Positions 11,464 to 49,119 of a DNA stretch of 64,000 nt are shown in pieces; the stretch's first letter is position 1; every line of letters starts with the position of its first letter. The DNA is from a virus, in IMG/VR virus record IMGVR_UViG_3300013132_000033, positions 35,041 through 99,040 of that record; one strand, given 5' to 3'. Position numbers and translations under genes: made by a program. The notes under the pieces are model-generated. The model searched no databases. It was given only the letters and a program-made list of their open reading frames with translations, and had not been told where the DNA came from.

Positions 11464-11883
11464 TTAATCGAAATTAAAATAATACAAACTAATTGTATTA
11501 CCTGTTTTAAAATTGGTGAATGTACTCATAACTTGAAAACCATACTTTTTTAAAAGATGGTCCATTTCAGGACTATAACCATTTGTAGTAGCTTGCAATT
11601 GAGAACAATAATGAATTTTAAGTACTAACTGCAATAATAAATTACCGTAACCTTGATTACGCATTTCTTCTATAACTACTACAGAATTTAAAACTTCAAT
11701 ACCACAACAACCGGGATAAGCATTAATGTTAAACATACCAATTTCTTGATATTTTTTACCATAAATCAACCTTCGTTTCCAATTATTTTTAATATAAACT
11801 GTATAACGAGATTGATCAAATCCACGATTATAGTAAAGAGTTTTACCATTTATCATGTATTTAGTTAAATCTTTTTCTTCCAT
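11464..11883 (-). CDS. GNAT-family acetyltransferase
   Basis: 139 aa. Motif A is VVVIEEMRNQGYGNLLLQLVL (R-x-x-G-x-G acetyl-CoA pyrophosphate loop) near residues 75-95, preceded by the beta strand CGIEVLNSV. The C-terminal YGFQVMSTF strand completes a minimal GNAT fold. It overlaps the preceding amidotransferase by 23 bp. In the surrounding island it may acylate an amine or, as some GNAT relatives do, transfer an amino acid. Substrate unknown. Confidence 0.8.
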   Translation of the reverse strand: MEEKDLTKYMINGKTLYYNRGFDQSRYTVYIKNNWKRRLIYGKKYQEIGMFNINAYPGCCGIEVLNSVVVIEEMRNQGYGNLLLQLVLKIHYCSQLQATTNGYSPEMDHLLKKYGFQVMSTFTNFKTGNTISLYYFNFD

Positions 11884-12553
11884 AAAGCATGCTGTTTATT
11901 ATATTAATACTAAACTCATCATAGATTTCTTCTGGATGCCATTGTACTGCTACAATTGGTTTGTCTTTAACCCAAAATGCTTCTACATTATTAAATACTG
12001 AATTTGTATAAATAATTTTAATATTTTCACCTAAACGATCTTTATTAGTAATACCTTGATGATGTAATGAATTAACTTTTAGTTTAAAAAGTTTAACTTC
12101 ATTGTCAGTAAAATACTTAAAAGCATTTGTAAAATTATCAGCAGATCCAACTAAAGTATCAACAAGTTTATCACGAGGATCTGAATACTCTTGAGCAATA
12201 TGTTGACTTAAAGTACCACCAAAATGAACATTAAGTGTTTGAAAACCACGGCAAATACCAAACATAGGAATACCTGCAGCGATATATTGTGGTAACATAT
12301 ATTTATCCCAATCTTCTAATTGAATATTAGGATTACCTGATTGAAATACTGGTCTTTCACCATAACGAGAAGGATCGACATCCGCTCCGCCTGGAATAAT
12401 CAACAAATCAATATCTGTATGTACTTTATTATCGTATGCAAAAATTGGTATTGGAATACCAAAATGTGCTGCAAATGTACTATACGTTGCGGGCAGATTC
12501 ATCTGACCAGACTCTACTTTCGTTAATAATACTCCTATTCGCTGTTGTTTCAT
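11861..12553 (-). CDS. Class I glutamine amidotransferase-like hydrolase (peptidase C26 type)
   Basis: 230 aa. The nucleophile elbow FGICRGFQTLN has the catalytic Cys, and VQWHPEEIYD near the C-terminus has the His-x-Glu pair, giving a full Cys-His-Glu triad. LLIIPGGADVDPSRYGE matches gamma-glutamyl hydrolases such as PuuD, which cleave gamma-glutamyl amides, rather than synthetase-bound glutaminases. First 74 bp overlap the related upstream gene, so the two are probably ancient duplicates. Likely function: hydrolysing or remodelling gamma-glutamyl bonds made by the neighbouring ligases (inference). Confidence 0.8.
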   Translation of the reverse strand: MKQQRIGVLLTKVESGQMNLPATYSTFAAHFGIPIPIFAYDNKVHTDIDLLIIPGGADVDPSRYGERPVFQSGNPNIQLEDWDKYMLPQYIAAGIPMFGICRGFQTLNVHFGGTLSQHIAQEYSDPRDKLVDTLVGSADNFTNAFKYFTDNEVKLFKLKVNSLHHQGITNKDRLGENIKIIYTNSVFNNVEAFWVKDKPIVAVQWHPEEIYDEFSINIINSMLYGRKRFN

Positions 12554-13394
12554 GCGTTGTAATTAATTTTGTAGTTGGTAATTCTAATGGTAAAGTTGGT
12601 TGAGGTGTGGGAGTAGTAATAATTGTTGGTATAGCCCTAACTTTATTAAGTGTTTCTTTTAAATAAGGATATACATCAGCAAAATTACTAAATCTTTTAT
12701 CAATAAGGACATTGTGCGGATTTACACTATCTTTATGTTTATCAAACAATATTTTAAGATATTTATTAATAAACTCTAATGTTTTACTTGGCATTCTCAG
12801 TTCTGGGTGTCCTTGAATACCAAAACCTTTAATCAAACCTAAATAAAAGATTTCAGGTTCACGGTAAGTTATACTGTTTAACGGTACAGTTTCATAATTA
12901 GCATTTGGAACTAATGTTTCATTATCAGTACCGTTAATATAACAATTACTAATAGAATCAGCCCATGCAAGTAATATATTTTTATGTTCTACTGATGATG
13001 CCAAAGAATACCAATTAACCATTTGATGGTGAATTGAATTAGTAGTTAACAAATCTTTTTTACCTATAATATTAATATTATGATCACCTCTCATGTGATT
13101 ACTTACATGTTGAATAAGAACACCGCCATTAGCAATACCTAATAATTGCGCACCCCTGCATATACCAATTAAAAATTTATTTTGATAATAAGCTTCAATC
13201 AAACATTTTAATTGATGTTTATCTACGTCTTCATAAAAATATGTTTGATGAGAAGTTTTTTCTCCATATAATGCTGGATACCAATCTGAACCTCCCGGAA
13301 ATATTACTGCATCTGCATCTTCAATACTGTTAACTATTTCAACATTATCTATCCACGCCGCATCGCGATTTGAACCTACACAAAATACCTTCAT
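12480..13394 (-). CDS. Class I glutamine amidotransferase-like protein
   Basis: 304 aa. VIFPGGSDWYPALYGE, then LIGICRGAQLLGIANGG with the catalytic Cys, a conserved His-His in SIHHQMV, and FGIQGHPELR with His and Glu: an intact triad. The last ~80 residues form a Pro/Thr-rich tail (TIITTPTPQPTLPLELP) absent from the sister gene. Same fold as the next gene but only distantly similar by eye. It begins the amidotransferase/ligase island and starts 3 bp from the stop of the preceding hypothetical. Confidence 0.78.
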   Translation of the reverse strand: MKVFCVGSNRDAAWIDNVEIVNSIEDADAVIFPGGSDWYPALYGEKTSHQTYFYEDVDKHQLKCLIEAYYQNKFLIGICRGAQLLGIANGGVLIQHVSNHMRGDHNINIIGKKDLLTTNSIHHQMVNWYSLASSVEHKNILLAWADSISNCYINGTDNETLVPNANYETVPLNSITYREPEIFYLGLIKGFGIQGHPELRMPSKTLEFINKYLKILFDKHKDSVNPHNVLIDKRFSNFADVYPYLKETLNKVRAIPTIITTPTPQPTLPLELPTTKLITTHETTANRSIINESRVWSDESARNV

Positions 13395-16126: not shown

Positions 16127-16927
16127 TTATTCTTTTATAAAGATTTCATTCCAGCCGTATTCAAATTGACGGCTGCCTGGTTCTTTTTCAGAAATAATAA
16201 CAAATTCTTTTTGTGCTAAATGTGGCGGCCTTGCACCTGTTACTTGGTCACGCTCATCAGTTTTAAATGATAACATTGTTTTGTTACCATCTTTCCGATA
16301 CATATAACCAATAGCATCTGCATTAGCGCAAAGAATAAGTTTTAATTTACCGGGTAAATTTAAATCACGAGCTGAAATATCAGCACCATTTTTTTGAATA
16401 CTAGAGTCTTTAACATGACCTATTTCTATAGAGCATATTTTTGCTGGTGCTTCCATAATTGATAACAGTTTTTCGTATGCTTGGCGAAGATAATCATAAC
16501 CACCACCATTAGGTAAATCTGCAACTACATCTCTACCGGTGTAGTTTTTACCCATAGGTTTAGATTTATAAATTTCACCTGCAAGAAATGTTGCAATTTT
16601 CAATAAAGCTGTAACAGAATCGATAACTACAAAATCGTAATTATGTTTTTGTAATTCTGCAGCAAGCTCTTTAATTATTTCAATACATGTTGCAGGACCA
16701 TCGGGATGATTTAATACTTCTTTAGGATTAACATTTAGTTTAATACTTGCAATTTTAAGCACATTAACAATATCTCCTGTAACAAAATTAGTACCATCTT
16801 CAAAATCAATGATGATTGATTTAGGAAGTCCTGCTACAGCAGTAGTCTTCCCCACTTTAGGAGAAGCAAATAAAAGTAAACGACGTGGATTTACTGATAC
16901 AGTCGTTTTAGTTTGAATTAAACTCAT
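16127..16927 (-). CDS. Sak4-like RecA-fold ATPase
   Basis: 266 aa. Walker A FASPKVGKTTAVAGL at residues ~20-34, IIIDFEDGTNFV next, and Walker B YDFVVIDSVTALL near residue 100, in the order of the Sak4 single-strand annealing/recombination ATPases. A conserved RPPHLAQKEFVI segment follows. Probably loads on SSB-coated DNA for recombination-dependent replication. It stands between the SSB candidate and an unknown gene. Confidence 0.82.
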   Translation of the reverse strand: MSLIQTKTTVSVNPRRLLLFASPKVGKTTAVAGLPKSIIIDFEDGTNFVTGDIVNVLKIASIKLNVNPKEVLNHPDGPATCIEIIKELAAELQKHNYDFVVIDSVTALLKIATFLAGEIYKSKPMGKNYTGRDVVADLPNGGGYDYLRQAYEKLLSIMEAPAKICSIEIGHVKDSSIQKNGADISARDLNLPGKLKLILCANADAIGYMYRKDGNKTMLSFKTDERDQVTGARPPHLAQKEFVIISEKEPGSRQFEYGWNEIFIKE

Positions 16928-20855: not shown

Positions 20856-23384
20856 TTAACCGCATTTAGAACTACCGCATTCTTTACACTTTTGACAACC
20901 TTCTTCATAAACGATAGCTTTACTACCACAATCTAAACATGTAGCTGTAGAAGTAGTACCATCTGGAATATATTGTTTAAGTGTTCTTGCAATAGCTTTT
21001 GTAAAACTATTTAATTCGCCATCTGTTTTTAATAGTTGCTCTACAATAAATTTAATATCTGCACCATGTCGTAATGATGTAGAAATAAGTCTTGTAATAG
21101 CTTGTTGTTCATCCGACATTGATTTAGTAATATCATTAACAATACTAAATTCATTATCAAGTGTACAAGTTAAATTGTAAACTCCACGACTTTTCTTTTT
21201 TAAAAATCCTGTTTTATATCCTGAACATAAAATATTAGGAATACAGAATACTTCGTATGGTTTACGATCTAATAAACCTACTAAAATAGTGTAAGGTTCA
21301 GCTTTTGCTTTAATATGATAAATATCTACATGCAATTCTTCAGGACGTTTAGGAGCGTCTCGATATTCAAATACATCTGCTTTTTTAGCATCTATTTGAA
21401 CTAGTACTCCTGTACGACATCCATCTCTATAAATAGTTGTACCTTTTAAACCTTTTTTCCACGATTCAGTATAAATAGTTGCAACTTCATCTACTGTAAC
21501 TTCGTTAGGTAAATTAATTGTACTACTTATACTATGTGTAGTATATTTTTGAATTATACCTTGAATTTCAACACGTTTAGTCCAATCTATATCATTAGCA
21601 GTTGATTCGTACCAAGGTGATAGTGCAAATAAACTTTGTATTTCATCATTAGACATTGCTTGAATTATTTCACAAGCAGTATCATAAGGAGTACTTGTAA
21701 ATACACTATACCAATTAATAAATTTAGGATGCACTACAGGATATTCCATCCAAGTATCACCATTTTGATCTGTAAAATCAACACGTACTCCAGAATCTCC
21801 TGGATTTACTTTTTTTCTCCTCATATAACCCCAATTAAACAATGGTTCTAATCCGCTAGTTGTTTGTGTGAGGATACTTACGGAACCTGTTGGGGCAACT
21901 GTTGAAAATGATACATTACGCCTGCCTTGTTCAATCATTCGTAATACTTCAGGATAAAAGTTATCAACTAACATTTGGTAAAATTGATTTTTACCTTTAA
22001 TTGATGTTATTTTATCTTTGTTATCACGTACAATATCAAATTCAGCATTAGCATCAAATCCTATAAACGCACCATATTGCTCTGCCATATTAATAGAAGC
22101 ATTTAACTCAGCTTTAAACTTAGTTTTCATTACTTCTTCAATAATTGATAGTGCTTCATTAGAATCGTATTTAATTCTTAAAGCGGCAAGCATATCACCT
22201 AAACCAGTAAATCCGCAACCTGTACGTCTACCAGATTTTGTAATGTACCTGATATTTTCCCATAGACTATATTCAGTATTATAGATAGACGGATCATCGC
22301 AATTAACACGATCATTATCAATTTTATCTAAAATTCTGTTTATATGTTCTACTTCAAGATCAATTACACCATCAGCTAATACTTGTTGATTATACGACAT
22401 TTCATATAATTTCTGATAGTCAATACGAGCATCTTTAGTAAAAGGATTATTTACAAATGAATATAAATTTAACGCTATTAAACGACAAGCATCATATTTA
22501 CCCATAAAGATTTCTCCGCATGGATTTGTAGTGATTCCTTTATATTCAGGATATACAGTATCGGGAGAATAATCCCAATGCTTATCAATAAATATAATTC
22601 CTGGTTCGGCAGACGCCCAAGCTGCTTGAATAATTTGATCATAAATAGCTTTAGCGTTTACTTTTTTTGTATAAACAGTTATGTTGTCTACATTAAATTG
22701 TTCATAATTGTCAGAAGCATTTTTTAATACTTCATCATTATCATAATCACACGGCCATCGAAGTACATAATCTTCATTATTAGTAACTGCTTTCATAAAA
22801 TCATCGCGAAGCATTACACTAATATTAGCACCAGTTACTTTAGTAAGATCTTTTTTAATGTTTATAAAATGTTCAACATCAGGATGTCGTACATCTATTG
22901 AAATCATTAAAGCACCCCTACGTCCATTTTGAGCAACTTCTCTAGTACTATTAGAGTACCTATCCATAAAAGATACAGCTCCTGTCGATGATCCTGCAGC
23001 ATTTGTAACTGGAGAATTAGCCGGCCTAAGTGTAGAAATATCAATACCTACACCACCACGTCGTTTCATTAACTGAACTAATTCTTCATCTTTACGCATA
23101 ATACCTGAATAAGAATCATGAGGCTGACCAACTACAAAACAATTAGATAAACTAGCTATTTTGTAATTTTTACCTAATGTAGCCATTATACTACCTTGAG
23201 GAATAATGTATTTAAAATGATCAAACATAACCATTATTTCATCATATGAAAGTTTAGTAACACGAGCAAATTCTCGTGCCATTCTTTCATGCATATCTTT
23301 AGGCGTAACATCCGCCTTATCAGAATATTTACCTTGCCATACTGACATGGCAAGTTCATCATTATTAAAATATGCTTTTAACAT
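20856..23384 (-). CDS. nrdJ: Adenosylcobalamin-dependent (class II) ribonucleotide reductase
   Basis: 842 aa. SIMATLGKNY, ASLSNCFVVG (thiyl-site Cys), RRGGVGIDISTLRP, TTNPCGEI (NPCGE) and a PTGSVSIL segment are all in class II order. The C-terminal ~25 residues hold paired CxxC units (CLDCG, CQKCKECG, SSKCG) of a zinc-ribbon/redox tail. It reduces ribonucleotides to deoxyribonucleotides without oxygen, which fits an anaerobic gut host. It needs B12 from the host; no separate radical subunit or activase is present. Works with ThyX (36402) and the nucleotide hydrolases at 4.0-5.0 kb. Confidence 0.92.
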   Translation of the reverse strand: MLKAYFNNDELAMSVWQGKYSDKADVTPKDMHERMAREFARVTKLSYDEIMVMFDHFKYIIPQGSIMATLGKNYKIASLSNCFVVGQPHDSYSGIMRKDEELVQLMKRRGGVGIDISTLRPANSPVTNAAGSSTGAVSFMDRYSNSTREVAQNGRRGALMISIDVRHPDVEHFINIKKDLTKVTGANISVMLRDDFMKAVTNNEDYVLRWPCDYDNDEVLKNASDNYEQFNVDNITVYTKKVNAKAIYDQIIQAAWASAEPGIIFIDKHWDYSPDTVYPEYKGITTNPCGEIFMGKYDACRLIALNLYSFVNNPFTKDARIDYQKLYEMSYNQQVLADGVIDLEVEHINRILDKIDNDRVNCDDPSIYNTEYSLWENIRYITKSGRRTGCGFTGLGDMLAALRIKYDSNEALSIIEEVMKTKFKAELNASINMAEQYGAFIGFDANAEFDIVRDNKDKITSIKGKNQFYQMLVDNFYPEVLRMIEQGRRNVSFSTVAPTGSVSILTQTTSGLEPLFNWGYMRRKKVNPGDSGVRVDFTDQNGDTWMEYPVVHPKFINWYSVFTSTPYDTACEIIQAMSNDEIQSLFALSPWYESTANDIDWTKRVEIQGIIQKYTTHSISSTINLPNEVTVDEVATIYTESWKKGLKGTTIYRDGCRTGVLVQIDAKKADVFEYRDAPKRPEELHVDIYHIKAKAEPYTILVGLLDRKPYEVFCIPNILCSGYKTGFLKKKSRGVYNLTCTLDNEFSIVNDITKSMSDEQQAITRLISTSLRHGADIKFIVEQLLKTDGELNSFTKAIARTLKQYIPDGTTSTATCLDCGSKAIVYEEGCQKCKECGSSKCG

Positions 23385-23412: not shown

Positions 23413-23550
23413 TTATTTTTTAAGTTTTTTAACTAAACGAAAGCCAAGAAAAGTAAAACGATGATTTTTCTCATAGTAAACACGTACATTTATTTTACAA
23501 ACTTCAATAACAGTACCATAAGAACCACCATAAATAAAAATATTATCCAT
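23413..23550 (-). CDS. Array unit 12: variable FGE C-terminal cassette (45 aa)
   Basis: MDNIFIYGGSYG start, single Cys in EVCKI, then VLGFR-type ending TFLGFRLVKKLKK. Last unit before RNR. AT-rich throughout, with Ser-Tyr in place of Ser-Trp and Lys in place of the Arg after Cys, so more diverged than the GC-rich units. Begins six bases before the previous unit's stop. Confidence 0.8.
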   Translation of the reverse strand: MDNIFIYGGSYGTVIEVCKINVRVYYEKNHRFTFLGFRLVKKLKK

Positions 23551-23683
23551 GTTTTAATGTTTTAATTAAACGGAACCCCAAGCCGCCGTAGCGGTAGTCG
23601 GGCGTGTCGCCGCTGCGATCCGCCACCCGGCAGTACTGCGGGTAGCCGTACCACGACCCGCCGCGAATATACTTATAATTCAT
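23543..23683 (-). CDS. Array unit 11: variable FGE C-terminal cassette (46 aa)
   Basis: MNYKYIRGGSW then variable YGYPQY, CRVADR, variable SGDTPDYRYGG, LGFRLIKTLK. Nearly all variable codons are NNC or NNG in a GC-rich core flanked by AT-rich ends, as expected if AAC codons of a template were changed at A positions. The closest of all units to textbook diversity-generating retroelement variable repeats. Confidence 0.88.
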   Translation of the reverse strand: MNYKYIRGGSWYGYPQYCRVADRSGDTPDYRYGGLGFRLIKTLKHG

Positions 23684-23817
23684 TATTTCAGTTTTTTAAT
23701 TAAACGAAATCCTAAGACTTTGTAGCGGTGATCCAGCTCGTCTAAGTACTGAAAATCGGGCAAGCAACCGATTGCTAGGCTACCATAGCTACCACCACGA
23801 ATATACTTATAATTCAT
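23683..23817 (-). CDS. Array unit 10: variable FGE C-terminal cassette (44 aa)
   Basis: MNYKYIRGGSYG, identical to unit 11 for its first ten residues, then a divergent core (SLAIGCLPDFQYLDELDHRYKV shortened here to its landmarks Cys18 and His30) and LGFRLIKKLK. The shared N-terminus shows duplication from unit 11 followed by change in the core. TAATG overlap with the next unit. Confidence 0.85.
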   Translation of the reverse strand: MNYKYIRGGSYGSLAIGCLPDFQYLDELDHRYKVLGFRLIKKLK

Positions 23818-23954
23818 GTTTTAACTGTTTTAATAAGTCTAAACCCAACATAATTACAACAATATTGTTGATGACTCCACAATCGATCTGATGATTTACA
23901 CGCTAGATTATTACTAATCCACGATCCACCATAATTAATAAGATAATTTTTCAT
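23814..23954 (-). CDS. Array unit 9: variable FGE C-terminal cassette (46 aa)
   Basis: MKNYLINYGGSW with one residue inserted before GGSW, Cys at 19, CK instead of CR, SSDR, and VGFRLIKTVKT. AT-rich. ATGA overlap with unit 10. Confidence 0.82.
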   Translation of the reverse strand: MKNYLINYGGSWISNNLACKSSDRLWSHQQYCCNYVGFRLIKTVKT

Positions 23955-24091
23955 GATTTTAATGATTTAGTTAAACGAAAGCCAATGTATTGTGTCCTGA
24001 ATGACGGTCGATAAGTTGTGCGAAAATCAGTACGGCAAAATTTTAGATTAAAATTATCCCAACAACCTCCAAAAATAATAAATGTATTCAT
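23951..24091 (-). CDS. Array unit 8: variable FGE C-terminal cassette (46 aa)
   Basis: MNTFIIFGGCW (Cys replaces Ser), FCRTDFR with the CR and R landmarks kept, then IGFRLTKSLKS. The N-terminus matches units 3 and 5 (MNTF). ATGA overlaps on both sides. Confidence 0.84.
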   Translation of the reverse strand: MNTFIIFGGCWDNFNLKFCRTDFRTTYRPSFRTQYIGFRLTKSLKS

Positions 24092-24231
24092 GATTTTAAT
24101 ATTTTAATTAATCGAAATCCAACATACAAATATTTGTAAATTGCTTTATTTCTAACATGTTCTGATGAACGATCAACTATTAAACAATTTTGATGATAAA
24201 CACCTGTTCCTTTTATAGTTATTTGGTTCAT
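24088..24231 (-). CDS. Array unit 7: variable FGE C-terminal cassette (47 aa)
   Basis: MNQITIKGTGVYHQNC keeps the Gly-x-Gly but has lost the Ser-Trp; VDR and VGFRLIKILKS remain. Longest and most diverged unit and fully AT-rich. It may be old or relaxed. Confidence 0.78.
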   Translation of the reverse strand: MNQITIKGTGVYHQNCLIVDRSSEHVRNKAIYKYLYVGFRLIKILKS

Positions 24232-24368
24232 AATTTTAATGATTTAGTTAAACGAAATCCTAAAGCGTTAGCATGATAATCCAATATACTAAGATTGCGA
24301 TAAACTGTAAGACAACCGTAGTTAAAACTGCTACATCCACCGCCGCGAATGTTAAAATATTTTTACAT
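24228..24368 (-). pseudogene. Array unit 6: cassette with stop directly after ATG
   Basis: The frame reads ATG-TAA and then KYFNIRGGG...GCLTVYR...LGFRLTKSLKL, so a complete cassette body lacks a usable start: the position that is ATG in other units is TAA here. The joint with unit 5 is the same length as normal joints but AATG has become GTAA. Either a broken unit, a sequencing error, or translation by another route. Stop is TGA overlapping the next ATG. Confidence 0.7.
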
Positions 24369-24499
24369 TTTAATGTTTTAATTAGACGAAAACCAACTAT
24401 GTTGCTACGACACTCATGTACACCGATGTCACGATATAATACTCGACAACGCTCGGGAACGTTAATCCAGCTACCGCTACAAAGAATAAAGGTATTCAT
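24260..24499 (-). CDS. Array unit 5: variable cassette running on into unit 6 (79 aa)
   Basis: The first 44 residues are a normal cassette (MNTFILCSGSW, ERCRVLYR, VGFRLIKTLK). The usual stop is missing, so the frame continues 35 residues through unit 6 in another frame; that extension happens to be strongly hydrophobic (VAVLTTVVLQFIAILVYWII). Whether the product is a membrane-tailed cassette or a mutation relic is unclear. Confidence 0.7.
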   Translation of the reverse strand: MNTFILCSGSWINVPERCRVLYRDIGVHECRSNIVGFRLIKTLKCKNILTFAAVDVAVLTTVVLQFIAILVYWIIMLTL

Positions 24500-24633
24500 T
24501 ATTTCAGTTTTTTAATTAAACGGAAGCCAATGCTGAAGTTGCGGAAGTCCGAATCGTCCCAGCCCCGAAACGCTACCCGGCAGTACTCCGGGGAGCGGTT
24601 CCAACTACCTCCAACAATATTAAAGTATTTCAT
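24499..24633 (-). CDS. Array unit 4: variable FGE C-terminal cassette (44 aa)
   Basis: MKYFNIVGGSWN, then RSPEYCRVAFR, GWDDSDFR, NFSIGFRLIKKLK. GC-rich core with NNC/NNG codons at the variable positions. Landmarks Trp11, Cys18 and Arg19 kept. TAATG overlaps with both neighbours. Confidence 0.88.
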   Translation of the reverse strand: MKYFNIVGGSWNRSPEYCRVAFRGWDDSDFRNFSIGFRLIKKLK

Positions 24634-24767
24634 TATTTTAATGTTTTAATTAAGCGAAAGCCCAAAAAGTTGAAGCGGCGGTCCGGCCCGCTGATGAAGC
24701 GATCCGATGCGCGGCAGAACCTGGCAGTGTTGAGCCAGCCGCCGCTAAAAACTACAAATGTATTCAT
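24633..24767 (-). CDS. Array unit 3: variable FGE C-terminal cassette (44 aa)
   Basis: MNTFVVFSGGWL, then NTARFCRASDR, FISGPDRRFNFLGFRLIKTLK. Shares the DNA framework GGGCCGGAC...CGCTTC with unit 2, while codons between differ mainly in their first two bases. TAATG overlaps. Confidence 0.88.
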   Translation of the reverse strand: MNTFVVFSGGWLNTARFCRASDRFISGPDRRFNFLGFRLIKTLK

Positions 24768-24901
24768 TATTTTAATGTTTTAATTAAGCGAAAGCCGAGA
24801 TGGCTGAAGCGGTAGTCCGGCCCGTAGAAGTTGCGATACGAAGCGCAGCAGTACACGGCATTGATGACCCAGCTGCCGCCTTTTATAATAAAGTATTTCA
24901 T
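24767..24901 (-). CDS. Array unit 2: variable FGE C-terminal cassette (44 aa)
   Basis: MKYFIIKGGSWV, then YCCASYR, FYGPDYRFSHLGFRLIKTLK. GC-rich core, AT-rich ends. Compared with unit 3, differences are concentrated at NNC codons (for example TAC versus CGC, AGC versus AAC), with third bases kept. TAATG overlaps. Confidence 0.88.
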   Translation of the reverse strand: MKYFIIKGGSWVINAVYCCASYRNFYGPDYRFSHLGFRLIKTLK

Positions 24902-25032
24902 TATTTAAGTTTTTTGATTAATCGAAAACCAAGATATTTTTCGCAATATCTTAATTTATCATAACTAGATATTGTTATACGGCAGTTTGTAATACTATTA
25001 TAACTACCGCCTTTAATTATAATTTGTTTCAT
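24901..25032 (-). CDS. Array unit 1: variable FGE C-terminal cassette (43 aa)
   Basis: First unit of the array. MKQIIIKGGSYN, NCRITISSY, LGFRLIKKLK. AT-rich. It begins 24 bp after the terminator hairpin of the FGE-like gene, so the array may have its own promoter or be transcribed by read-through. No TAnnTTTG box is visible in that 24 bp. Confidence 0.84.
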   Translation of the reverse strand: MKQIIIKGGSYNSITNCRITISSYDKLRYCEKYLGFRLIKKLK

Positions 25033-25056
25033 TGTCAAGTAGTGTTAAAATTTAAA

Positions 25057-25083
25057 AAGGGGGCTGCTGTTAACAACCCCCTT
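25057..25083 (-). terminator. Intrinsic terminator after the FGE-like gene
   Basis: AAGGGGG/CCCCCTT stem of 7 bp with a 13-nt loop, followed on the minus strand by a T-run. It lies between the FGE core gene and the cassette array and could set the ratio of core to cassettes. Confidence 0.85.
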
Positions 25084-25089
25084 AAAAAA

Positions 25090-25698
25090 TTATTTAGGTA
25101 GTGGCATGTTTTGATCTACGGACTGAGGAATTCGTTTGTTACGATAAAAATCAATAAAGTTTTGATTTGTAACGTTTGGAACAATAGGTCCATAGACACT
25201 ATTAGTCCATTCCCACACGTTGCCGCTCATATCATACAGACCAATTGAATTTGGTTTTTTCAAACCAACAGGATGTGTTTCTCCGCCGGAATTTCCATAA
25301 TACCATGCAACTTCGTCAATATTATCAGAACCTGCGTATTTATGTGAAGTCATTTCATGACCTCCCCTTGCAGCATATTCCCACTGTTCTTCTGTTGGTA
25401 ATTCATATTTATACTTAGGATCTAACTCATTAAGTTTTGCAATAAATTTTTTGATATCGTTGTAAGATATATTTTCAACAGGTCGATTTTCCCAATCAGG
25501 ACGATTTTTAAAATACGATGGATTTTCACCCATCACATCTACCCATTGTTTTTGGGTAACAAGAAATGTTGTCATTTCAAAATTTTCAGCAATCTCAACC
25601 ATTTTGTTACGATTGGGACCGAAAAGAAATTTACCAGCAAGTACTTTTATAGTGCTGAAATTTGGGAGTGTTGGTTTAAAACCTTTTGGTTTAGCCAT
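25090..25698 (-). CDS. FGE-sulfatase (C-type-lectin fold) protein lacking its C-terminal variable segment
   Basis: 202 aa. Family landmarks in order: FLVTQKQWVDVMGENPSYF (residues ~46-63), NRPVENISY (71-79), YELPTEEQWEYAARGG (98-113), YAGS (121), VAWYYGNSGGETHPVG (130-145) and GLYDMSGNVWEW (153-164). In full-length relatives the next part is RGGSW...CR...R...GFRL, but this protein ends 38 residues later without it. The 12 mini-genes downstream encode exactly that missing piece. In phages such folds are usually receptor-binding or displayed ligand-binding proteins; catalytic FGE function is not implied. It could bind cassettes in trans. Confidence 0.85.
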   Translation of the reverse strand: MAKPKGFKPTLPNFSTIKVLAGKFLFGPNRNKMVEIAENFEMTTFLVTQKQWVDVMGENPSYFKNRPDWENRPVENISYNDIKKFIAKLNELDPKYKYELPTEEQWEYAARGGHEMTSHKYAGSDNIDEVAWYYGNSGGETHPVGLKKPNSIGLYDMSGNVWEWTNSVYGPIVPNVTNQNFIDFYRNKRIPQSVDQNMPLPK

Positions 25699-25710: not shown

Positions 25711-26648
25711 TTAAAATAGTGAATGTTTTGGTTTAAATTTAACTACTTCGTTATTTGCTTGAACGATGTAGTATTGATAATTAATATTATAATCTTTTGG
25801 ATTAGTACTTTGAACTTGATTTAATAATTGACTATAATATGATTTTCCTTTTTGAGGATGCGCATTGAGATATTCATACGATCCTTTTGAATATACTTTT
25901 TTAAATATCATACCTGTTTTAGATATGATATATCTTATTGTCTTTGGTAATTTAGTTACAGTATTATTATTTGTGATACCTATAAAAGAACTATCTTGTT
26001 TAGCCCTAACGCCTATACAATAATCAAAAATATTATCACCATTAATAATTGTATCTTCTACAGGTGTGTTATACAAAAAATAATTATAAATAGCTTTTCT
26101 AACTATTAATTCAGATTTATTTTTATGTAACGGTAAATTTTCAAACTCAAAACTACCTTTACATTTTGCTTTACCATTAGTATAAATTGCAATATAATTG
26201 TTGACATCTCGAATAATCATTTTACTATAATAAGCGTATTCTAATTGAAGTCTAGTTATAGACTCCCATTGTTTACAAATATTATAATATTCTGATTCAT
26301 GTTGTTTTCTAAGTTTACAAGTTAAACCGTCTGTATTTATTTGAATAAGTGTCAAATCAGGTATTTCCATTAATTGTTCAGCTAACATTGTTAACATTAA
26401 CTGACCATTAATAGTTGTAGATAATGTATATTTAAAATCACGTAACCAAGAAGTTTCTTCATTACTTTTACCGTAGACACTATTAGCAGCTTCTTTATAA
26501 CCGGCAACAATAACAAAATCTCCATTTTTACCTTTTGCTTTTTCACGTAATCTTACATCTACAATATCTTCTTTGTAAACTCTACTAAATTCTTCTCCTA
26601 AATGTTCAGGATATAAATTATTTACTGTAGCTATACTTGGGTATAGTG
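25711..26648 (-). CDS. Family B DNA polymerase, 3' exon
   Basis: Continues the 27741-28635 exon after intron removal. It opens with LYPSIATVNNLYPEHLG (rest of motif A), then KEAANSVYGKSN (motif B, KxxxNSxYG), INTDGLTC (motif C with the catalytic Asp) and KMIIRDVNNYIAI, the conserved KxxDVxNYI segment of protein-primed and phage family B enzymes. The joined gene has 610 codons plus a stop. The first ATG in this exon (26397) is internal and should not be taken as the gene start. Ends with TAA 13 bp before the FGE-like gene. Confidence 0.88.
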
Positions 26649-27740
26649 CATACCCTCTGAATATTTCTATTCAGTTTGGACTTTATCATCAATTAAAACC
26701 TTATTCCACCAATATCCATACATACTTGGTTTTTCACCACTACATACTGCATAAATATTGTGTCGTTTGTAATCAGGGTTTTGCTCTAACAATTCATAAA
26801 CGGTATTCCATCTTTTTATTAAAGTTTGTTTATCTTTAGTATATTGATCTATATAATATTTAGTTATTTTTTGAGATTGCTTTAATATATCCTGTTTTTT
26901 AATTTCAGGATTATTTTCATATTTTTGTTTTCTAGTATATACACCTTTTACTTGAATTTCATATGGAACTTTTTTTCTATTACCTTCTTTAAAAGTTTTT
27001 AATATCTTTTCTGACATTATTTTCTTTTGTTCTTCTGTCCATTTATTATTAAAATTTGGATTGAGTTCTCCTTTCATTCTTTTTTTTAATAATTCTCTTG
27101 TTTTTTCATGAACAAAAGATTGGGAAGAAGAATCTTGTCTAAGATTATATCCATAATTTAAATCAGTAGTATTGTAATACTTCATCCAATATAATTCTCT
27201 GTCTTTAATATTATTTTGAAAATTTTCTGAATGAATATCTATTTCTTCTAAAATTTCATATATAAAATTATTTTTTCCATATTTATGCCAAGAATTAATT
27301 AAATATCTATTACAATCTTTAGATTTACTAGTTAACCCGCAAATATGATTTGCAATTCTATTATTAATATTAATTGATTTTCCAATATACCTTTTTCCGT
27401 TTATTATATTGATAATGCAATAAATTCCCGATTTGTTTTTAAGTTGTTTGTTTATCTTCATATCTTTTTTAAATTTATTACAAAGATACGACGTTTCTTC
27501 TCTATATCCAAATATTTTAACAACTTTAACAAAACTTTAACGTTTTAATGCTTCCTGTTAAGTCTCTGAACCTTATTCTCATATTTTTGTGAGAATCTTG
27601 GCTGCGGATTGACCAATACTTTCTCTTTTTACTATACTCAATTGATTAGATTGACCACTATATACATCACTGTCATAGTTTAGTAAGAAAGTCTCTAAGG
27701 TTATTCCCGCAATTTAAGAAGTTTTAGTTGCGCCACTTTA
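26649..27740 (-). mobile_element. Group I-like intron in the DNA polymerase gene
   Basis: 1092 nt. The 5' exon end GTTGCGT pairs with an internal guide GCGCAAC 7 nt into the intron, ending in the required U-G wobble; the last intron base is G. Group I core landmarks are visible: AATTGCGGGAA (P), CAATCCGCAGCC (Q) and GTTCAGAGACTTAACAGG (R). Joining the predicted sites restores DADVASLYPSI, the canonical motif A. I could not place the S element with certainty. The GIY-YIG ORF lies in its 3' half. Confidence 0.88.
26667..27461 (-). CDS. GIY-YIG homing endonuclease (intron-encoded)
   Basis: 264 aa. KSGIYCIINIINGKRYIGKS near residues 10-29 has GIY and YIG separated by 9 residues, followed by a conserved Arg/His and Glu further on (NRIANH; NFIYEILEE). 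A middle NUMOD-like region precedes the C-terminal RWNTVYELLEQNPDYKRHNI and PSMYGYWW DNA-binding modules. It cuts intronless alleles and spreads the intron. Ends with TAG 18 bp before the predicted 3' splice site, inside the intron. Confidence 0.92.
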   Translation of the reverse strand: MKINKQLKNKSGIYCIINIINGKRYIGKSININNRIANHICGLTSKSKDCNRYLINSWHKYGKNNFIYEILEEIDIHSENFQNNIKDRELYWMKYYNTTDLNYGYNLRQDSSSQSFVHEKTRELLKKRMKGELNPNFNNKWTEEQKKIMSEKILKTFKEGNRKKVPYEIQVKGVYTRKQKYENNPEIKKQDILKQSQKITKYYIDQYTKDKQTLIKRWNTVYELLEQNPDYKRHNIYAVCSGEKPSMYGYWWNKVLIDDKVQTE

Positions 27741-28635
27741 ACGCAACATCGGCATCAAGAATTATCCAATCATTGTCAGCATTTACAATTTCAGTATTTA
27801 CACTACCATGTATACCGCCTTTACCATAATCAAATTGAAATCCTTTATAAATAAAAGATTTATTAAATTTTTCTGTTGGTTCAATATTTTTATCTTTAAA
27901 CCAATTTAATAAACCTTGTAATTCTATATTTTTAAATTGTATATACGGAAAAAGTATATCTTTTACATATACATTTGTACGTATAGTTTGTTTTTTACTA
28001 ATTTCTTTTTTATTAGCTTTAACTGCTTTACAGTATAAATCTAACATTAATTCTGATCCTATTTTACTATTACTAGCATTTATAAAATTTATACCATATT
28101 TGCTAGTTAAACTTATTCTTAACTGTAATTCTTTTTCATACAGTTTAAATAATTGATCTGTAGCATTTACATCATTAATACAATATTTTATAGTAGCATC
28201 AGCTTCTTCTCTTGAATTAACATGACCATGATAAGGCATATCTTCAAGATTTGGCCAATCAACCATAAATTCACACCATTTTAAACTTACCATTCTGTTT
28301 TTATTATCAAGATGTAATATCTTGTAAATATCAACATTAAATATAGTTCGTTTGTATATAGGAACAATTATTTCTTCTTGTTCAATTATTCTTACTGTAT
28401 ATTCATGAATTTGTTTAGCAGTTAACTTTCTTAATTTTAACAGTTCGATAATTTGACCATCAAAATTTAAATTGTTATATCCGCGTAAAGAATTAACAGT
28501 TTTTAAAAAAGCTACTAATTCATTATACTCATTTTTCCAATCACTTATTTCAAAGATTTTATAATTATCTTCATTTTTAAATACAGCACAAAAGAAATTA
28601 GGTAGAGTTTCTACATCATAAGTCCAATTTGCCAT
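27741..28635 (-). CDS. Family B DNA polymerase, 5' exon (exonuclease domain)
   Basis: First 298 codons. ExoI YDVETLPNF (residues 6-14), ExoII GYNNLNFDGQ, ExoIII YCINDVNATD: all three carboxylate motifs of the 3'-5' proofreading exonuclease are intact. The frame then reaches WIILDADVA, the start of polymerase motif A, and is interrupted by the intron; read straight through, it would end in LKWRN and a stop. Starts 20 bp inside the preceding gene, hence coupled. Confidence 0.9.
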
Positions 28636-30543: not shown

Positions 30544-30602
30544 TGGTAGGGAGGGAAGGACTCGAACCTTCAATTAAGAGCTCTACCTTTGAGCTACCTC
30601 CC
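30544..30602 (-). ncRNA. tRNA-like gene lacking the anticodon arm
   Basis: 59 nt. Acceptor GGGAGG/CCTCCC, canonical D arm GCTC-AAAGGTA-GAGC, canonical T arm GAAGG-TTCGAGT-CCTTC and a 3' ACCA. Only eight bases (TCTTAATT) replace the whole anticodon arm and variable loop. It therefore cannot decode a codon but could still be folded and CCA-tailed. Confidence 0.65.
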
Positions 30603-30609
30603 AATAAAA

Positions 30610-33036: not shown

Positions 33037-33043
33037 ATATTCG

Positions 33044-33127
33044 TACCCGGAACAGGACTTGAACCTGTACAACCTTTTGGGTCAAGGGATTTTAAGTCCC
33101 TCGTGTCTACCATTTCACCACCCGGGC
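33044..33127 (-). tRNA. tRNA-Leu(UAA)
   Basis: 84 nt type II tRNA: acceptor GCCCGGG/TCCGGGT with terminal wobble pairs, D arm with GG (AAATGGTAGAC), anticodon arm AGGGA-CTTAAAA-TCCCT (anticodon TAA, U33 present), variable arm GACCCAAAAGGTT, T arm ACAGG-TTCAAGT-CCTGT. UUA is a dominant Leu codon in these AT-rich genes. Confidence 0.9.
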
Positions 33128-33134
33128 ATTAATG

Positions 33135-33217
33135 TGGGTAAGAAGGGATTCGAACCCTCAATCCATAATGGCAACAGATTTTAAGTCTGTCGTGTATACC
33201 AGTTCCACCACTTACCC
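33135..33217 (-). tRNA. tRNA-Leu(UAA), second copy
   Basis: Acceptor GGGTAAG/CTTACCC, D loop AACTGGTATAC, anticodon arm ACAGA-CTTAAAA-TCTGT, long variable arm, T arm GAGGG-TTCGAAT-CCCTT. Complete and canonical. Same anticodon as its neighbour but a different body, so not a recent duplication. Confidence 0.92.
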
Positions 33218-40936: not shown

Positions 40937-40967
40937 GATTTTGTTTTTAAAGAATGTACATTATTCA

Positions 40968-41282
40968 CTACAACGCCACATAGCCCCTGTTAAGGAGCGT
41001 TTGCTTGGCGTCATCGCCAGAGTCCGTCAACTTCAACCGGGTTTCCCCGCCTGCATTTACCGTTTCAACAACCGACCAGTTACGGTCGATGTTCTTGCCA
41101 ATCTCGGCGCGCTCAGACGCCTTGATTGACAAATACACGTTCTCCGCCTCTTCCGGGTTGGAAGAGTTAAGAAACGTGCAGAAGAGATAGCCCGCCGCAT
41201 TTTTGCGGATTGGGCTCACGAGGTCGTAACCCTTCGTGGACATGTAGTCCTTGATGGGTGTCTTAACAAAACTATTTTCCAT
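40968..41282 (-). CDS. Hypothetical protein (104 aa), G+C-rich
   Basis: Soluble basic/acidic mixed protein (KTPIKDYMSTKGYDLVSPI...NRGYVAL). The codon third positions are much richer in G and C than surrounding genes. That can mean strong expression or recent acquisition. No motif. It has its own terminator upstream at 41311. Confidence 0.6.
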   Translation of the reverse strand: MENSFVKTPIKDYMSTKGYDLVSPIRKNAAGYLFCTFLNSSNPEEAENVYLSIKASERAEIGKNIDRNWSVVETVNAGGETRLKLTDSGDDAKQTLLNRGYVAL

Positions 41283-41310
41283 TGAACAAAAGTTTATTGT
41301 TTTTTGAATG

Positions 41311-41340
41311 AAAAAATCCTGTTATTATTACAACAACAGG
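41311..41340 (-). terminator. Intrinsic terminator
   Basis: CCTGTT/AACAGG stem with T6 on the minus strand, upstream of the 104-aa gene; it ends transcription arriving from the tRNA-like region. Confidence 0.7.
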
Positions 41341-41446
41341 GGGAAAACAAAAGTATCAAATAAAATTTCAACATGAGTTTTTTGAGTTTAAAAACTCCCC
41401 CCAGTATCTATATACTAGAGGGAGACTCTCATTCTAAACTCTTCTG

Positions 41447-41545
41447 CTATAATACTTGGAGTCGAACCAAGACTTTTAAAATCAGTATAAAACTAATTTT
41501 AACGTGCATCCAAAAGCTAGCGAGCGTAGATTACACCATATTATG
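41447..41545 (-). ncRNA. tRNA-like gene with extended anticodon arm
   Basis: 99 nt. T arm CTTGG-TTCGACT-CCAAG is canonical; acceptor CATAATA/TATTATA pairs at six of seven positions; D arm starts TGGTGTAA but lacks GG. The anticodon region is a 10-bp helix TTAAAATTAG/CTGATTTTAA topped by the 7-nt loop TTTTATA, which would present UUA (a UAA reader) if it worked as a tRNA. Confidence 0.5.
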
Positions 41546-41975
41546 TACCACCTCCATCTAGTGAAGACTGGAAAACCGTTTCCCTCGGAGGAGGCGAATG
41601 GGGAATTGAGTACTACCTGGCCGGCTGCTTTATAGCCGAATGGGTAGGCAAAAAAGAAAACATGAGTGAATTTTTATTGACTACTCTCGCCCTGCCAGCA
41701 TAACTGGTTTTACTGCAGGTTGAATTTCGACCCTATTGAGTAGTCATATTCATAAATGTCCTATTTCTATGTACTGCTACATAGTTTACACTTATATTAC
41801 ATAAACTCTGTTGTTATGTAATACTCTTCAATAGGCTGAAGCTAGTGTAGTTGTAATTACAACTAATGGAATTAAAGTTAATTGTAATAGCTGTATTTCT
41901 GGAACAGCATATTTACACAGTTATATTACAATTAATAACACTTTTTGATAAACCAGAAGTGTAACTGGTATTCCT
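41546..41975. other. 430-bp gap with structured elements and a coding-like remnant
   Basis: Contains (a) a start-less + strand frame at 41527-41703 whose codons look protein-like (EDWKTVSLGGGEWGIEYY); (b) a 69-nt element 41678-41746 closed by an 8-bp stem TGACTACT/AGTAGTCA; (c) 41760-41835 closed by CCTATT/AATAGG with CTATGTA/TACATAG and TTACATAA/TTATGTAA arms; (d) 41876-41939, a long GTTAATTGTAATA-type inverted repeat. No complete gene. Confidence 0.4.
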
Positions 41976-42569
41976 TCAATCTATGATAACAATCTGTAGC
42001 TTTTTAGCTACAAATGTATTAGCAGCTTCATTAGTCCAGCAATCGGGCCAATGACCCGCAACTTCCGCAACAGACGGAAGGAAAAAAGCTTTCAGATACG
42101 GATTCCAATGCCGTTTCGCTTGCTGAGAAGCTAAAACGGATAAGGCAATAGACAATTGACCCTCCCAAACCCTTCGGGAAGAACTGTCAAGGCCCAGCAA
42201 CATACCCACATGTTCGTGAGTAAGTGGCGCAGTGATCCTGTACTGGTACTTTTCCCCATTGGGGTATGTACCAATTGAAACAGGCCCAAAAGGCATACTC
42301 TCAAACATAAAAGATTGAGACGTCTCGAGGGTTTGGCCCCAAGATGTTGTCTCAATCTCTGCTTGAGACAGCCACCCCCGACCAGCATCGACCATAGGAT
42401 AACCCATGTCGACAACTGAGAAAAGGGATGGACAAACCAATCCCAGAGTACACACTTCAGTGTACATGCCAAACTTAGAATGGATGACAGACTGAGGCGT
42501 TACGAGCATATGCTCACCACTCAGAGCAACAACAACAAAATGGTTTTCCATGAACCAATAGTCTTTCAT
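41976..42569 (-). CDS. Hypothetical protein (197 aa), first gene of the leftward block
   Basis: No signal or membrane helix; mixed alpha/beta with Gly/Ser-rich loops (ALSGEHMLVTPQ, GLDSSSRRVWEGQL). G+C-rich codons compared with most leftward genes. First gene after the divergent control region, the place where crAss-like and other phages keep early host-takeover genes; the role is otherwise unknown. A second Met six codons in (42551) is an alternative start. Confidence 0.6.
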   Translation of the reverse strand: MKDYWFMENHFVVVALSGEHMLVTPQSVIHSKFGMYTEVCTLGLVCPSLFSVVDMGYPMVDAGRGWLSQAEIETTSWGQTLETSQSFMFESMPFGPVSIGTYPNGEKYQYRITAPLTHEHVGMLLGLDSSSRRVWEGQLSIALSVLASQQAKRHWNPYLKAFFLPSVAEVAGHWPDCWTNEAANTFVAKKLQIVIID

Positions 42570-42880
42570 TTATATACCGCTAATGGACAAGAGCGGTGGG
42601 TTGAAGAAAGTTAGAAGAGAATGAAAAATAACGCCAGGGGACCTTCCCCAGCTATAATTTAGTGGGGGGTGGGGTCTGGGATACCCAAACACCTATAATC
42701 CTCACAAAAAATAGGGGGGGGGAGTCAACTTAAAAAAAAGACTCCGGGGGGCATCTTTTTATATAAAATACAAAAACTAAATTTATAAAAAAATATTTAA
42801 ATTTTCTTTTTGCGTTATCCGTTATAAAATAAGGTTTTTTTTCAAAACCACTATTATCGGTTCTTCAAGTTATTTTTTTT
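42570..42880. promoter_or_regulatory. Divergent control region with G tracts and hairpin
   Basis: No gene. Contains G-runs of 6-9 on the + strand (42664-42722), a GGAGTC/GACTCC hairpin (42719-42746) with a polyA loop and a 3' T-run, and long A/T tracts. It separates the leftward early block from the rightward virion block, so promoters for both directions are expected. I see no perfect TAnnTTTG box on the minus strand. A replication origin here is possible. Confidence 0.5.
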
Positions 42881-46793: not shown

Positions 46794-49119
46794 AAATATA
46801 GATACATGGAAAGTAAAAATTCCTAAACTTCATCCTGATAATGAAAAATTTAGTAAAATATGGTCATTATATACAAAACATTGTATAGAAGGATTATGGG
46901 GATTTGATTCAGGAGGTTGGCGTTTTATGCCAGGAACTTTATTTTTTTATGGTAATTTCTTTTCAATTCTTGACATAGATAAAAAACAAAAAGTTCGCCG
47001 ATACGTAAGACCTGACATTCGAGATATAGATTGGATGTTACATTATGCTTATCTTGAATGTCAAGGTTTTTCGGGTTGGAGAGATGATGATGAATATACA
47101 TCTAATTATGATGTATTAAAATGTCAAAGTATAGCAGATACAAATAATCCAAATTTAGTAAGTTCTAAAGGTAAACTTAAAACTTTTATAGCACCTAGAG
47201 AAAATATTAAAAAGTTACATGATAAAGTTAAAGGTCCTCCTTTATATGAAAATCCAGCTAAAAATCTTTTAGTATTTGGATCACGTGGCGGAGGTAAATC
47301 ATTTACTTTTTCTGGTATATCTGGACACCATGTAACATTTGATGGATTAAAGTATTTTACACAAGAAGATTTTGATAATCCTCCTACTATTGAAGTATGT
47401 GTAGGTTCCGGTAATACTGATAAATCATCTGAATTTTGTACTAAAATTGAAGAAGGTTTAAAAGCATTTGGAACAGATAATGATTTAGGGGTATGGGGTA
47501 AAGCTGATAGAGGTGATGATGATTATACTCCCAACCCTTTTTATCGAGATTGGGAAGGTTCTATTGGAGTAGGCAATAAAAAGAATCCGTTTAGATATGA
47601 ATATTCAGCTAAAATAAATAATCGATGGATTCATGGTTTAGGTACTAAAACTAAACTTATACATGTAAACTATTCTGATAAAAAACAAGGTGGTGAAGCA
47701 GCTGCAGCAGGTGGACGTTATGTTTTAATATTATATGAAGAAATTGGTTTAATGTCTAATATTGTTGATGCTTGGTTTTCTAATGTGGGTACTGTAACAG
47801 ATCCTAATGGTAATCAATTTGGAGTACAAGTTGGTATTGGTACATCAGGTAATATTGAATTAGTACAGCAATCAAAAAAGATTTTTAATAATCCTAGAGA
47901 TTATAATTGTTTAGCTTATAATGATATTTGGGAAAATAATGGTGAAATAGGTTTTTTCTTATCTGCTTATTTAACTAACTCTCAATTTAAAGATAAAAAT
48001 GGAAATACTGATGTAGAAAAAGCTTTACAATTTTATATGGACAGGCGTATTGAAGCTGGTAAATCAACTGATCCTGAAGCATTACGTAATGAAAAAATGA
48101 ATTATCCGTTGATACCATCTGATATGTGGCATTCATCTAAAGGACATCACTTTCCAGTAATGGAATTAATGGATAGAGAAAAAGAACTTGTAAAATTTGG
48201 TAAATATAGAACTATTGGTCAACCTGTAAATTTACTTTGGGATTCTACTAGACAATATGGTGTAAAATCAGAACCTGATTTAAATGCTGAACCTTTTTAT
48301 GAGTTTCCTTATAATCACACAAATACTAAATTAGATGGTTCTATTTTAATATATCAAGAACCTGAATTAGTAAATGGCGAAATACCTCCAGATATGTATT
48401 TCTTTGTATTAGATCCTTATGTTGCAGATGATGTTGATGAAGGCGGATCGTTAGGTGCTTTTTATGGTTTTATTAACCCTAAATATGGAGCGCCTTATAA
48501 TGGAGGAAGTATGGTATGTTCTTACGTTGGTAAACACCCTAAAGGACGTGATGGTTATTATGAAAATATTGAAAAGATTATTGCATATTATGGTAATAAT
48601 AATAGAAGTTTATGGTATGAAGCAAACCGAGGTGATTCTGTAAGAGGTTATTTTTTAAGACGTAACAAGTTAAATTTATTAGCGTTAAGTCCTACTAGAG
48701 AAAAAGGTAGTTCGGCCTACGAAAAGAAAGTATTAAGTTATGGTATTATGCTAAACGGTATAGAACAAAAACTTGAAATGATTGGTGATGCTTCAGATTA
48801 TTTAATGCAACAAGTGATTTATAATAATAAAGAAATACGATTTGTTGAAACATTACCTGATATATTTTTAATACGTCAAATGTTAGCATTTGAGTTAAAA
48901 AAACATAAAAACTTTGATGCTGTTTCTGCTTTTATTATGGCACCTTTTGTAATGAAAGAATTAAGACACTTACAAATCAGAGAAGAAGAAAAGAAACATA
49001 GACATAATCCTCTAGCGGCATTATCTATGAATCCTAATATCTTTAGACCTGATGATATACAACAAAAAATAAAACGTTTTCATGAACAATATACAACCTA
49101 CAACGAAAATAATCAATGA
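46747..49119 (+). CDS. terL: Large terminase subunit
   Basis: 790 aa. Walker A FGSRGGGKSFTF near residue 175, Walker B YVLILYEEIG near 325. The nuclease half begins with FFVLDPYVADD (metal Asp) and continues to LWYEANRGDSVRGYF. Packs genome into preformed heads and cuts it. Overlaps the chaperonin gene by 38 bp, so the two are made in fixed proportion. Confidence 0.92.
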   Translation: MIQNLDLLKKDLIKIENIDTWKVKIPKLHPDNEKFSKIWSLYTKHCIEGLWGFDSGGWRFMPGTLFFYGNFFSILDIDKKQKVRRYVRPDIRDIDWMLHYAYLECQGFSGWRDDDEYTSNYDVLKCQSIADTNNPNLVSSKGKLKTFIAPRENIKKLHDKVKGPPLYENPAKNLLVFGSRGGGKSFTFSGISGHHVTFDGLKYFTQEDFDNPPTIEVCVGSGNTDKSSEFCTKIEEGLKAFGTDNDLGVWGKADRGDDDYTPNPFYRDWEGSIGVGNKKNPFRYEYSAKINNRWIHGLGTKTKLIHVNYSDKKQGGEAAAAGGRYVLILYEEIGLMSNIVDAWFSNVGTVTDPNGNQFGVQVGIGTSGNIELVQQSKKIFNNPRDYNCLAYNDIWENNGEIGFFLSAYLTNSQFKDKNGNTDVEKALQFYMDRRIEAGKSTDPEALRNEKMNYPLIPSDMWHSSKGHHFPVMELMDREKELVKFGKYRTIGQPVNLLWDSTRQYGVKSEPDLNAEPFYEFPYNHTNTKLDGSILIYQEPELVNGEIPPDMYFFVLDPYVADDVDEGGSLGAFYGFINPKYGAPYNGGSMVCSYVGKHPKGRDGYYENIEKIIAYYGNNNRSLWYEANRGDSVRGYFLRRNKLNLLALSPTREKGSSAYEKKVLSYGIMLNGIEQKLEMIGDASDYLMQQVIYNNKEIRFVETLPDIFLIRQMLAFELKKHKNFDAVSAFIMAPFVMKELRHLQIREEEKKHRHNPLAALSMNPNIFRPDDIQQKIKRFHEQYTTYNENNQ

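Follow-up and report, generated by a model that had tools for sequence, protein, structure and literature searches.

Among the described products of diversity-generating retroelements (DGRs), TvpA of Treponema and Mtd of a Bordetella phage share a C-type-lectin fold of the formylglycine-generating enzyme (FGE) type, a variable region at the C terminus and diversification at AAY codons. Both are single full-length proteins, with a reverse transcriptase (RT) and a template repeat nearby. It is generally known that in silent cassette systems, such as Neisseria pilS, Borrelia vlsE and Mycoplasma vlhA, one core or expressed gene is accompanied by many variant partial copies in tandem, and that in split or strand-complemented proteins a fold is shared between two chains. 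The FGE/lectin domain is also present in cellular DGR conflict systems, as FGE sensors linked to nSTAND/NACHT or caspase parts, and in these anti-phage systems the DGR-diversified C-type-lectin domains have been proposed to be antigen sensors (PMC10907252, PMC7159879). In this report, we analyze a locus of the IMG/VR virus record IMGVR_UViG_3300013132_000033 in which a protein of this type is encoded as a core gene and a separate array of variable C-terminal cassettes. The window, that is, the whole stretch of 64,000 nucleotides that was analyzed, covers bases 35041-99040 of this 99,040-base virus record, and all coordinates refer to it.

The locus combines features of these systems and matches none of them entirely. 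TvpA is its best match, both in structure and in sequence, but the variable lobe forms a separate multi-gene array, and neither RT nor template was found. Compared with the cellular conflict systems, the phage version is split, has no NTPase or caspase parts, and combines many variable regions in one locus; one cassette (c4) comes from such a DGR lineage, as judged by alignment, and two others (c2 and c3) resemble a variable region of this kind. The tandem arrangement recalls silent cassettes, but almost all copies in this array possess a start and a stop of their own, and a recipient gene is absent. Unlike in ordinary split proteins, many alternative second chains exist for a single first one. 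The sequence-only reading of this DNA knew of no described system of this kind, and we too found no paper describing a split or arrayed DGR target, although literature coverage is incomplete and such an absence is not proof of novelty.

The core gene (25090-25698, minus strand) encodes 202 amino acids (aa) and lies between the DNA polymerase and ribonucleotide reductase genes. In a profile search, it matches the Pfam FGE-sulfatase family (PF03781, E=3e-29) at profile positions 5-194 of 255. Its last residue stands 38 aa past the GNVWEW motif, and the C-terminal lobe is missing, whereas every FGE relative in a residue-level alignment of 26 sequences from viral contigs reaches the RGGSW..GFR tract; a broader profile scan found the C-terminal FGE part in most of the wider set of relatives. 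The closest solved sequence is that of the DGR variable protein TvpA (top phmmer match). A cassette alone matches only positions 212-255 of the same profile. Because the two ranges are complementary, the cassettes are precisely the C-terminal part that the core lacks, and the initial proposal of a core with separately encoded variable C-terminal cassettes is borne out. An active formylglycine-generating enzyme was considered and rejected, as the catalytic cysteine pair is missing: the core translation contains 0 cysteines, and there is a single conserved cysteine among the cassettes.

Twelve tandem repeat units of about 44 codons each follow downstream of the core on the same strand, spaced 133-140 nucleotides (nt) apart (134-nt period), and neighbouring cassettes mostly overlap as TAATG, the stop of one running into the start of the next. 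All share the framework GGS(W/Y)...C...GFRL.K.LK, with exceptions at single positions. When one cassette was used as a query against the whole record, 11 matches were obtained, every one within the array. The first unit, c1 (24901-25038), encodes 45 aa from a TTG at 25038 or 43 aa from an ATG at 25032, and is in the reading frame of the core, from which two TAA stops separate it. Then come three GC-rich units: c2 (24767-24901) and c3 (24633-24767), both with a DGR-type centre, and c4 (24499-24633). The unit of c5 (24366-24499) has lost its stop, so that its open reading frame (ORF) runs on to 24260 and covers 79 aa (24260-24499); c6 (24232-24365) is an open frame whose ATG position reads TAA. 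The most divergent centre is that of c7 (24088-24231, 47 aa). The array continues with c8 (23951-24091) and c9 (23814-23954), of 46 aa each, c10 (23683-23817, 44 aa) and c11 (23543-23683, 46 aa), in which GC content rises to 70% against a mean of 31% and for which the nearest bacterial variable region is L196 of a Saprospiraceae genome. It ends with c12 (23413-23550, 45 aa), which stands 28 nt ahead of the ribonucleotide reductase gene. Of the 12 tiny genes announced by the sequence-only reading, 11 have a start codon of their own.

Length differences among the cassettes are multiples of three, and all 12 centres are in frame. With c6 and c7 excluded, and for pairs that are not independent of each other, the ratio of nonsynonymous to synonymous differences between cassettes (pN/pS) is 0.29 for codons of the framework and 0.33 for the LIKxLK tail, which is specific to the phage. 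Starts, overlaps and selection together suggest that the cassettes are translated. A strong hairpin that had escaped the initial reading separates core and array (25057-25083, minus strand); with a 12-bp stem, a T-rich tail, a folding energy of -20.2 kcal/mol and z=-3.6, it is terminator-like.

The variation among cassettes bears the signature of a DGR. Cellular template repeats (for example RGGSWNNNARNCRVSNRNNNTPDNRNNNLGFRL) have asparagine (N) codons at the positions where the cassettes vary. The third base is C or T in 47 of 48 variable codons of the four GC-rich cassettes and in 108 of 120 of ten cassettes, against 91 of 160 framework codons. Between c2 and c3, 15 of the 24 first and second positions differ, and none of the 12 third positions. 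When 150 Saprospiraceae were compared with c3, the closest cellular match lay in a metagenome-assembled genome (MAG; G031), which also holds a template repeat (L246) close to c4: 18 of 31 A sites differ, compared to 5 of the 62 other sites, 57 of which match (p=4e-7). This match spans only the GGSW-to-GFR tract and has sharp edges, with unrelated flanks. The template repeat adjoins an RT and an nSTAND1-FGE gene carrying a variable region of its own, and in the same MAG a variable region like those of c2 and c3, with which it has the framework in common (L214), ends a caspase-FGE protein. The core itself is 50-66% identical to the FGE domains of these proteins over 67-132 aa.

Two marks of a DGR are therefore present, namely a target of the C-type-lectin fold and variation that is A-specific relative to a template, the latter being bacterial and not of the phage. 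A search for RVT_1 in the 99,040-bp phage record, which is linear and possibly incomplete, gave no match, and no template repeat turned up in the whole-record cassette search, which was not a scan dedicated to templates. As far as sequence comparison goes, these data show that the cassettes are of DGR-type origin and that c4 is near-identical to the product of a Saprospiraceae DGR template. The DGR-type nature of the variation (A-specific, at AAY codons) and the bacterial DGR origin of the freshest cassettes had been missed by the sequence-only reading. Since c1, c7, c9 and c12 are AT-rich and their signature is less clear, they may be older captures.

The split is not confined to this phage. 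Viral contigs were searched with a DNA pattern that describes a pair of adjacent cassettes, and twelve other viral stretches were retrieved; several are arrays, and others proved to be full-length genes of the ordinary kind or a DGR template. In the 87.8-kb contig G022, about 15 cassettes are present and several of them overlap as ATGA; the final one shares its ORF with a core, which covers FGE positions 4-210 and ends just before RGGSW. Two mutually related contigs of 88 and 87 kb (G023 and G024) have cores ending in ...FEWCRNEY(R/K)PY and cassettes on both sides. Relative to full-length relatives the cores of all three stop at the same place, the adjacent cassettes match positions ~203-254, and no FGE match other than the truncated core and the cassettes is present. 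Other core/array pairs, for which the sequence-only reading had wanted related phages to be searched, thus exist, and they are in phages unrelated to this one. Two fragments (G025 and G026) carry three cassettes each and no recognised core. The excess of C or T at variable codons is weaker in G022 (59 of 73 against 89 of 135, p=0.03), and RVT_1 found no match in G022-G027, records that may be incomplete.

The cores of G023 and G024 are 88-100% identical per 60-nt bin and their downstream arrays almost entirely 100%, whereas the three upstream cassettes have only ~40-65% identity per 60-nt bin, with sharp borders. On this alignment, cassettes are shown to have been exchanged between the sister phages. 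We also observed in G022 (L249, 7771-8165, plus strand) two cassettes 134 nt apart that are near-duplicates in their first half and differ mainly in their variable half; the pair would have arisen by tandem duplication followed by local change.

In bacterial genomes the tandem pattern is rare, with a match in 1 of 395 Bacteroidia genomes (L259, G327:C53:6085-6228). Two stricter DNA patterns gave no match in viral contigs, and no array was present in relatives found by cassette alignment or through capsid, ribonucleotide reductase or polymerase neighbours. In one such capsid relative of 108.8 kb (G015), the structural genes and a large part of the replication module are retained, but it gave no match to the core, ribonucleotide reductase or polymerase ORFs. 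The neighbour proteins of G022 and G024 have no match in named phages. Named Microcystis phages carry full-length FGE genes; in one of them, LMM01, a cassette-like open frame of 41 residues (RCRSATRDEFNRRDIRSYIFGFRIG; L254, 3651-3773, plus strand) lies directly upstream of such a gene and is possibly a remnant cassette.

We give a probability of about one half to the reading that this is an RT-less split binding protein of the FGE-type C-type-lectin family, in which an invariant core is served by variable lobes laid out as a co-directional array of mostly coupled small genes, captured from host DGR sensors and acting in trans as binders or decoys. Instead of mutating variable regions itself, the phage would copy those of its host by short-homology exchange, possibly with a Sak4-like single-stranded DNA (ssDNA)-annealing protein as the agent of capture; retrohoming in trans by a DGR of the host would be another route. 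Each cassette would then act in trans as a strand complement of the core, and the products would be binders that present different faces. Being expressed together with the replication genes, these would act inside the cell against host DGR-diversified nSTAND/caspase sensors, either as decoys for the sensors' ligands or as dominant-negative partners; this intracellular step builds on a proposal in the literature, by which DGR C-type-lectin domains would be antigen sensors in anti-phage conflict systems (PMC10907252; PMC7159879). Counter-defence binders or decoys are probably what the array supplies. A broader proposal, which we advance only tentatively, would be that phages of several groups carry such a split RT-less counterpart of host DGR lectin sensors, with a truncated sensor core and an array of lobes that is translated and open to exchange, that these lobes stem from the sensor genes of the host and complement the core in trans, and that immunity is blunted by sequestering ligands or poisoning nSTAND/caspase complexes.

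Several observations speak against the split-binder reading. The core and c1 were modelled with AlphaFold2 as one chain, read through the two stops and folded as a test only; the core was confident and the last strand scored 94, but the cassette centre scored 39-48. In the natural ORF of G022, where the cassette is N-terminal to the core, the cassette was undocked (35-44), with a multiple alignment only 3 sequences deep there. To these are added the missing start of c6 and the missing stop of c5. The donor link depends on a single template and few variable regions, and the host is presumed from sequence similarity only. Translation, binding of cassettes to the core and interaction with sensors are all inferred. 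Finally, because this linear record breaks off, at its right end, inside a tail-fibre-like gene, an RT or a template could be missing from it. Foldseek, applied to the model of core plus c1, returned TvpA as the top structural match. An assembly of core and cassette in trans is plausible, although the first model docks only the last strand with confidence.

The best placed of the alternatives, which we nevertheless hold to be unlikely, is a silent library of the pilS or vlsE kind, in which the cassettes are donors of variable regions that recombine into an expressed full-length gene of the phage, of a co-infecting phage or of the host. Conserved flanks around variable centres, the Sak4-like annealing protein, the replacement of cassettes between sister phages and the lost start of c6 speak for such a library. 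However, the 99-kb record, which may be incomplete, has no full-length FGE/lectin gene, and the truncated cores and cassettes of G022-G024 offer no recipient either; the gene conversion into another phage gene suggested by the sequence-only reading consequently finds no target in the record. Moreover, donors would do without translation starts, and these are kept in 11 of 12 cassettes, most overlapping the preceding stop, and purifying selection acts on the LIKxLK tail, for which a donor would have no use.

Diversification in situ, with the array as a DGR target in the phage genome and the RT and template on a missing piece or supplied by the host, appears improbable. A-specific variation, the single framework of c2 and c3, which differ almost only at AAY positions, and the linear record are in its favour. 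It is opposed by the lack of an RT match in the record and in G022-G027, by a template-phage match so confined to the GGSW..GFR tract that no 3' initiation region is shared, by the several frameworks (c2/c3, c4 and c11), which indicate several templates, and by the AT-rich composition of most cassettes, in which the signature is partly lost.

That the array is decaying, functionless debris, left behind as fragments of host variable regions were captured again and again and duplicated in tandem, we regard as quite improbable. The damage to c5 and c6, the divergent c7 and the very different ages and GC contents of the cassettes fit this idea. Yet the value near 1 at framework sites that the sequence-only reading had named as the mark of debris contrasts with a pN/pS of about 0.3, frames are kept in 12 of 12 centres with indels in threes, the split with coupled cassettes recurs in other phages, and cassettes are exchanged between sisters. 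Least probable is the fibre or receptor-binding role suggested by the sequence-only reading, in which core and cassettes form virion adhesins: phage DGR C-type-lectin proteins such as Mtd do bind receptors (PMC7159879), but the array lies among replication and recombination-type genes, here as in G022; in this phage its neighbours on the replication strand are DNA polymerase and ribonucleotide reductase, and the structural genes are far away on the other strand, the G022 array follows a Sipho_Gp157 gene, that of G025 adjoins what reads as a helicase-like ORF, and the donor-like bacterial genes encode nSTAND NTPase and caspase.

PHROG matches to a crAss-like major capsid protein, portal and terminase place the carrier among crAss-like-type phages, in line with Crassvirales-like phages of Bacteroidota; among named phages, capsid relatives are found in crAss-like and Flavobacterium phages, with 24-25% identity. 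The array is directly followed by the ribonucleotide reductase gene (20856-23384, minus strand; PF02867, E=4e-89), and further on by the gene for the Sak4-like protein (16127-16927, minus strand; phrog_124, E=2e-21). The ORF just upstream of the core (25711-26397, minus strand) has no Pfam match and aligns with the C-terminal part of ORFs of 622-648 aa in L106 and L107, so that it is likely the C-terminal part of a DNA polymerase whose N-terminal part (27724-28635) matches a DNA polymerase PHROG. The polymerase is apparently split around a GIY-YIG-like ORF (26667-27461, minus strand), and the interrupted gene (25711-28635, minus strand) looks like one carrying an intron with a homing endonuclease; no group I intron was detected in Rfam at the gathering threshold.

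Other features of the window were recorded. At 33043-33217 and 30547-30603, on the minus strand, we noted a pair of neighbouring tRNA-Leu genes that share the anticodon TAA, and another tRNA that Rfam detected and ARAGORN missed. Two adjacent genes (11861-13394, minus strand) read like class I glutamine amidotransferases/C26 peptidases, in an order kept in G015, and an ORF of 483 aa resembling a GroEL-type chaperonin (49082-50533, plus strand) stands between terminase and portal. GC-rich patches at 40951-42750 and 62461-63990 reach 0.53-0.56 against a mean of 0.31; the second, in the tail-fibre-like gene at the contig end, may likewise be host-derived.

A single core for which coupled mini-genes encode some dozen interchangeable second halves, as found in several phage lineages, is a means of building a binding repertoire for which we found no description, and this architecture could be useful in protein engineering. 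DGR-diversified sensors have been proposed to provide anticipatory immunity to multicellular bacteria. If our reading is true, a phage that collects variable regions of this kind, in arrays whose content changes from strain to strain, would constitute independent evidence that DGR sensors act against phages, and would give a concrete way of testing this anti-phage role.

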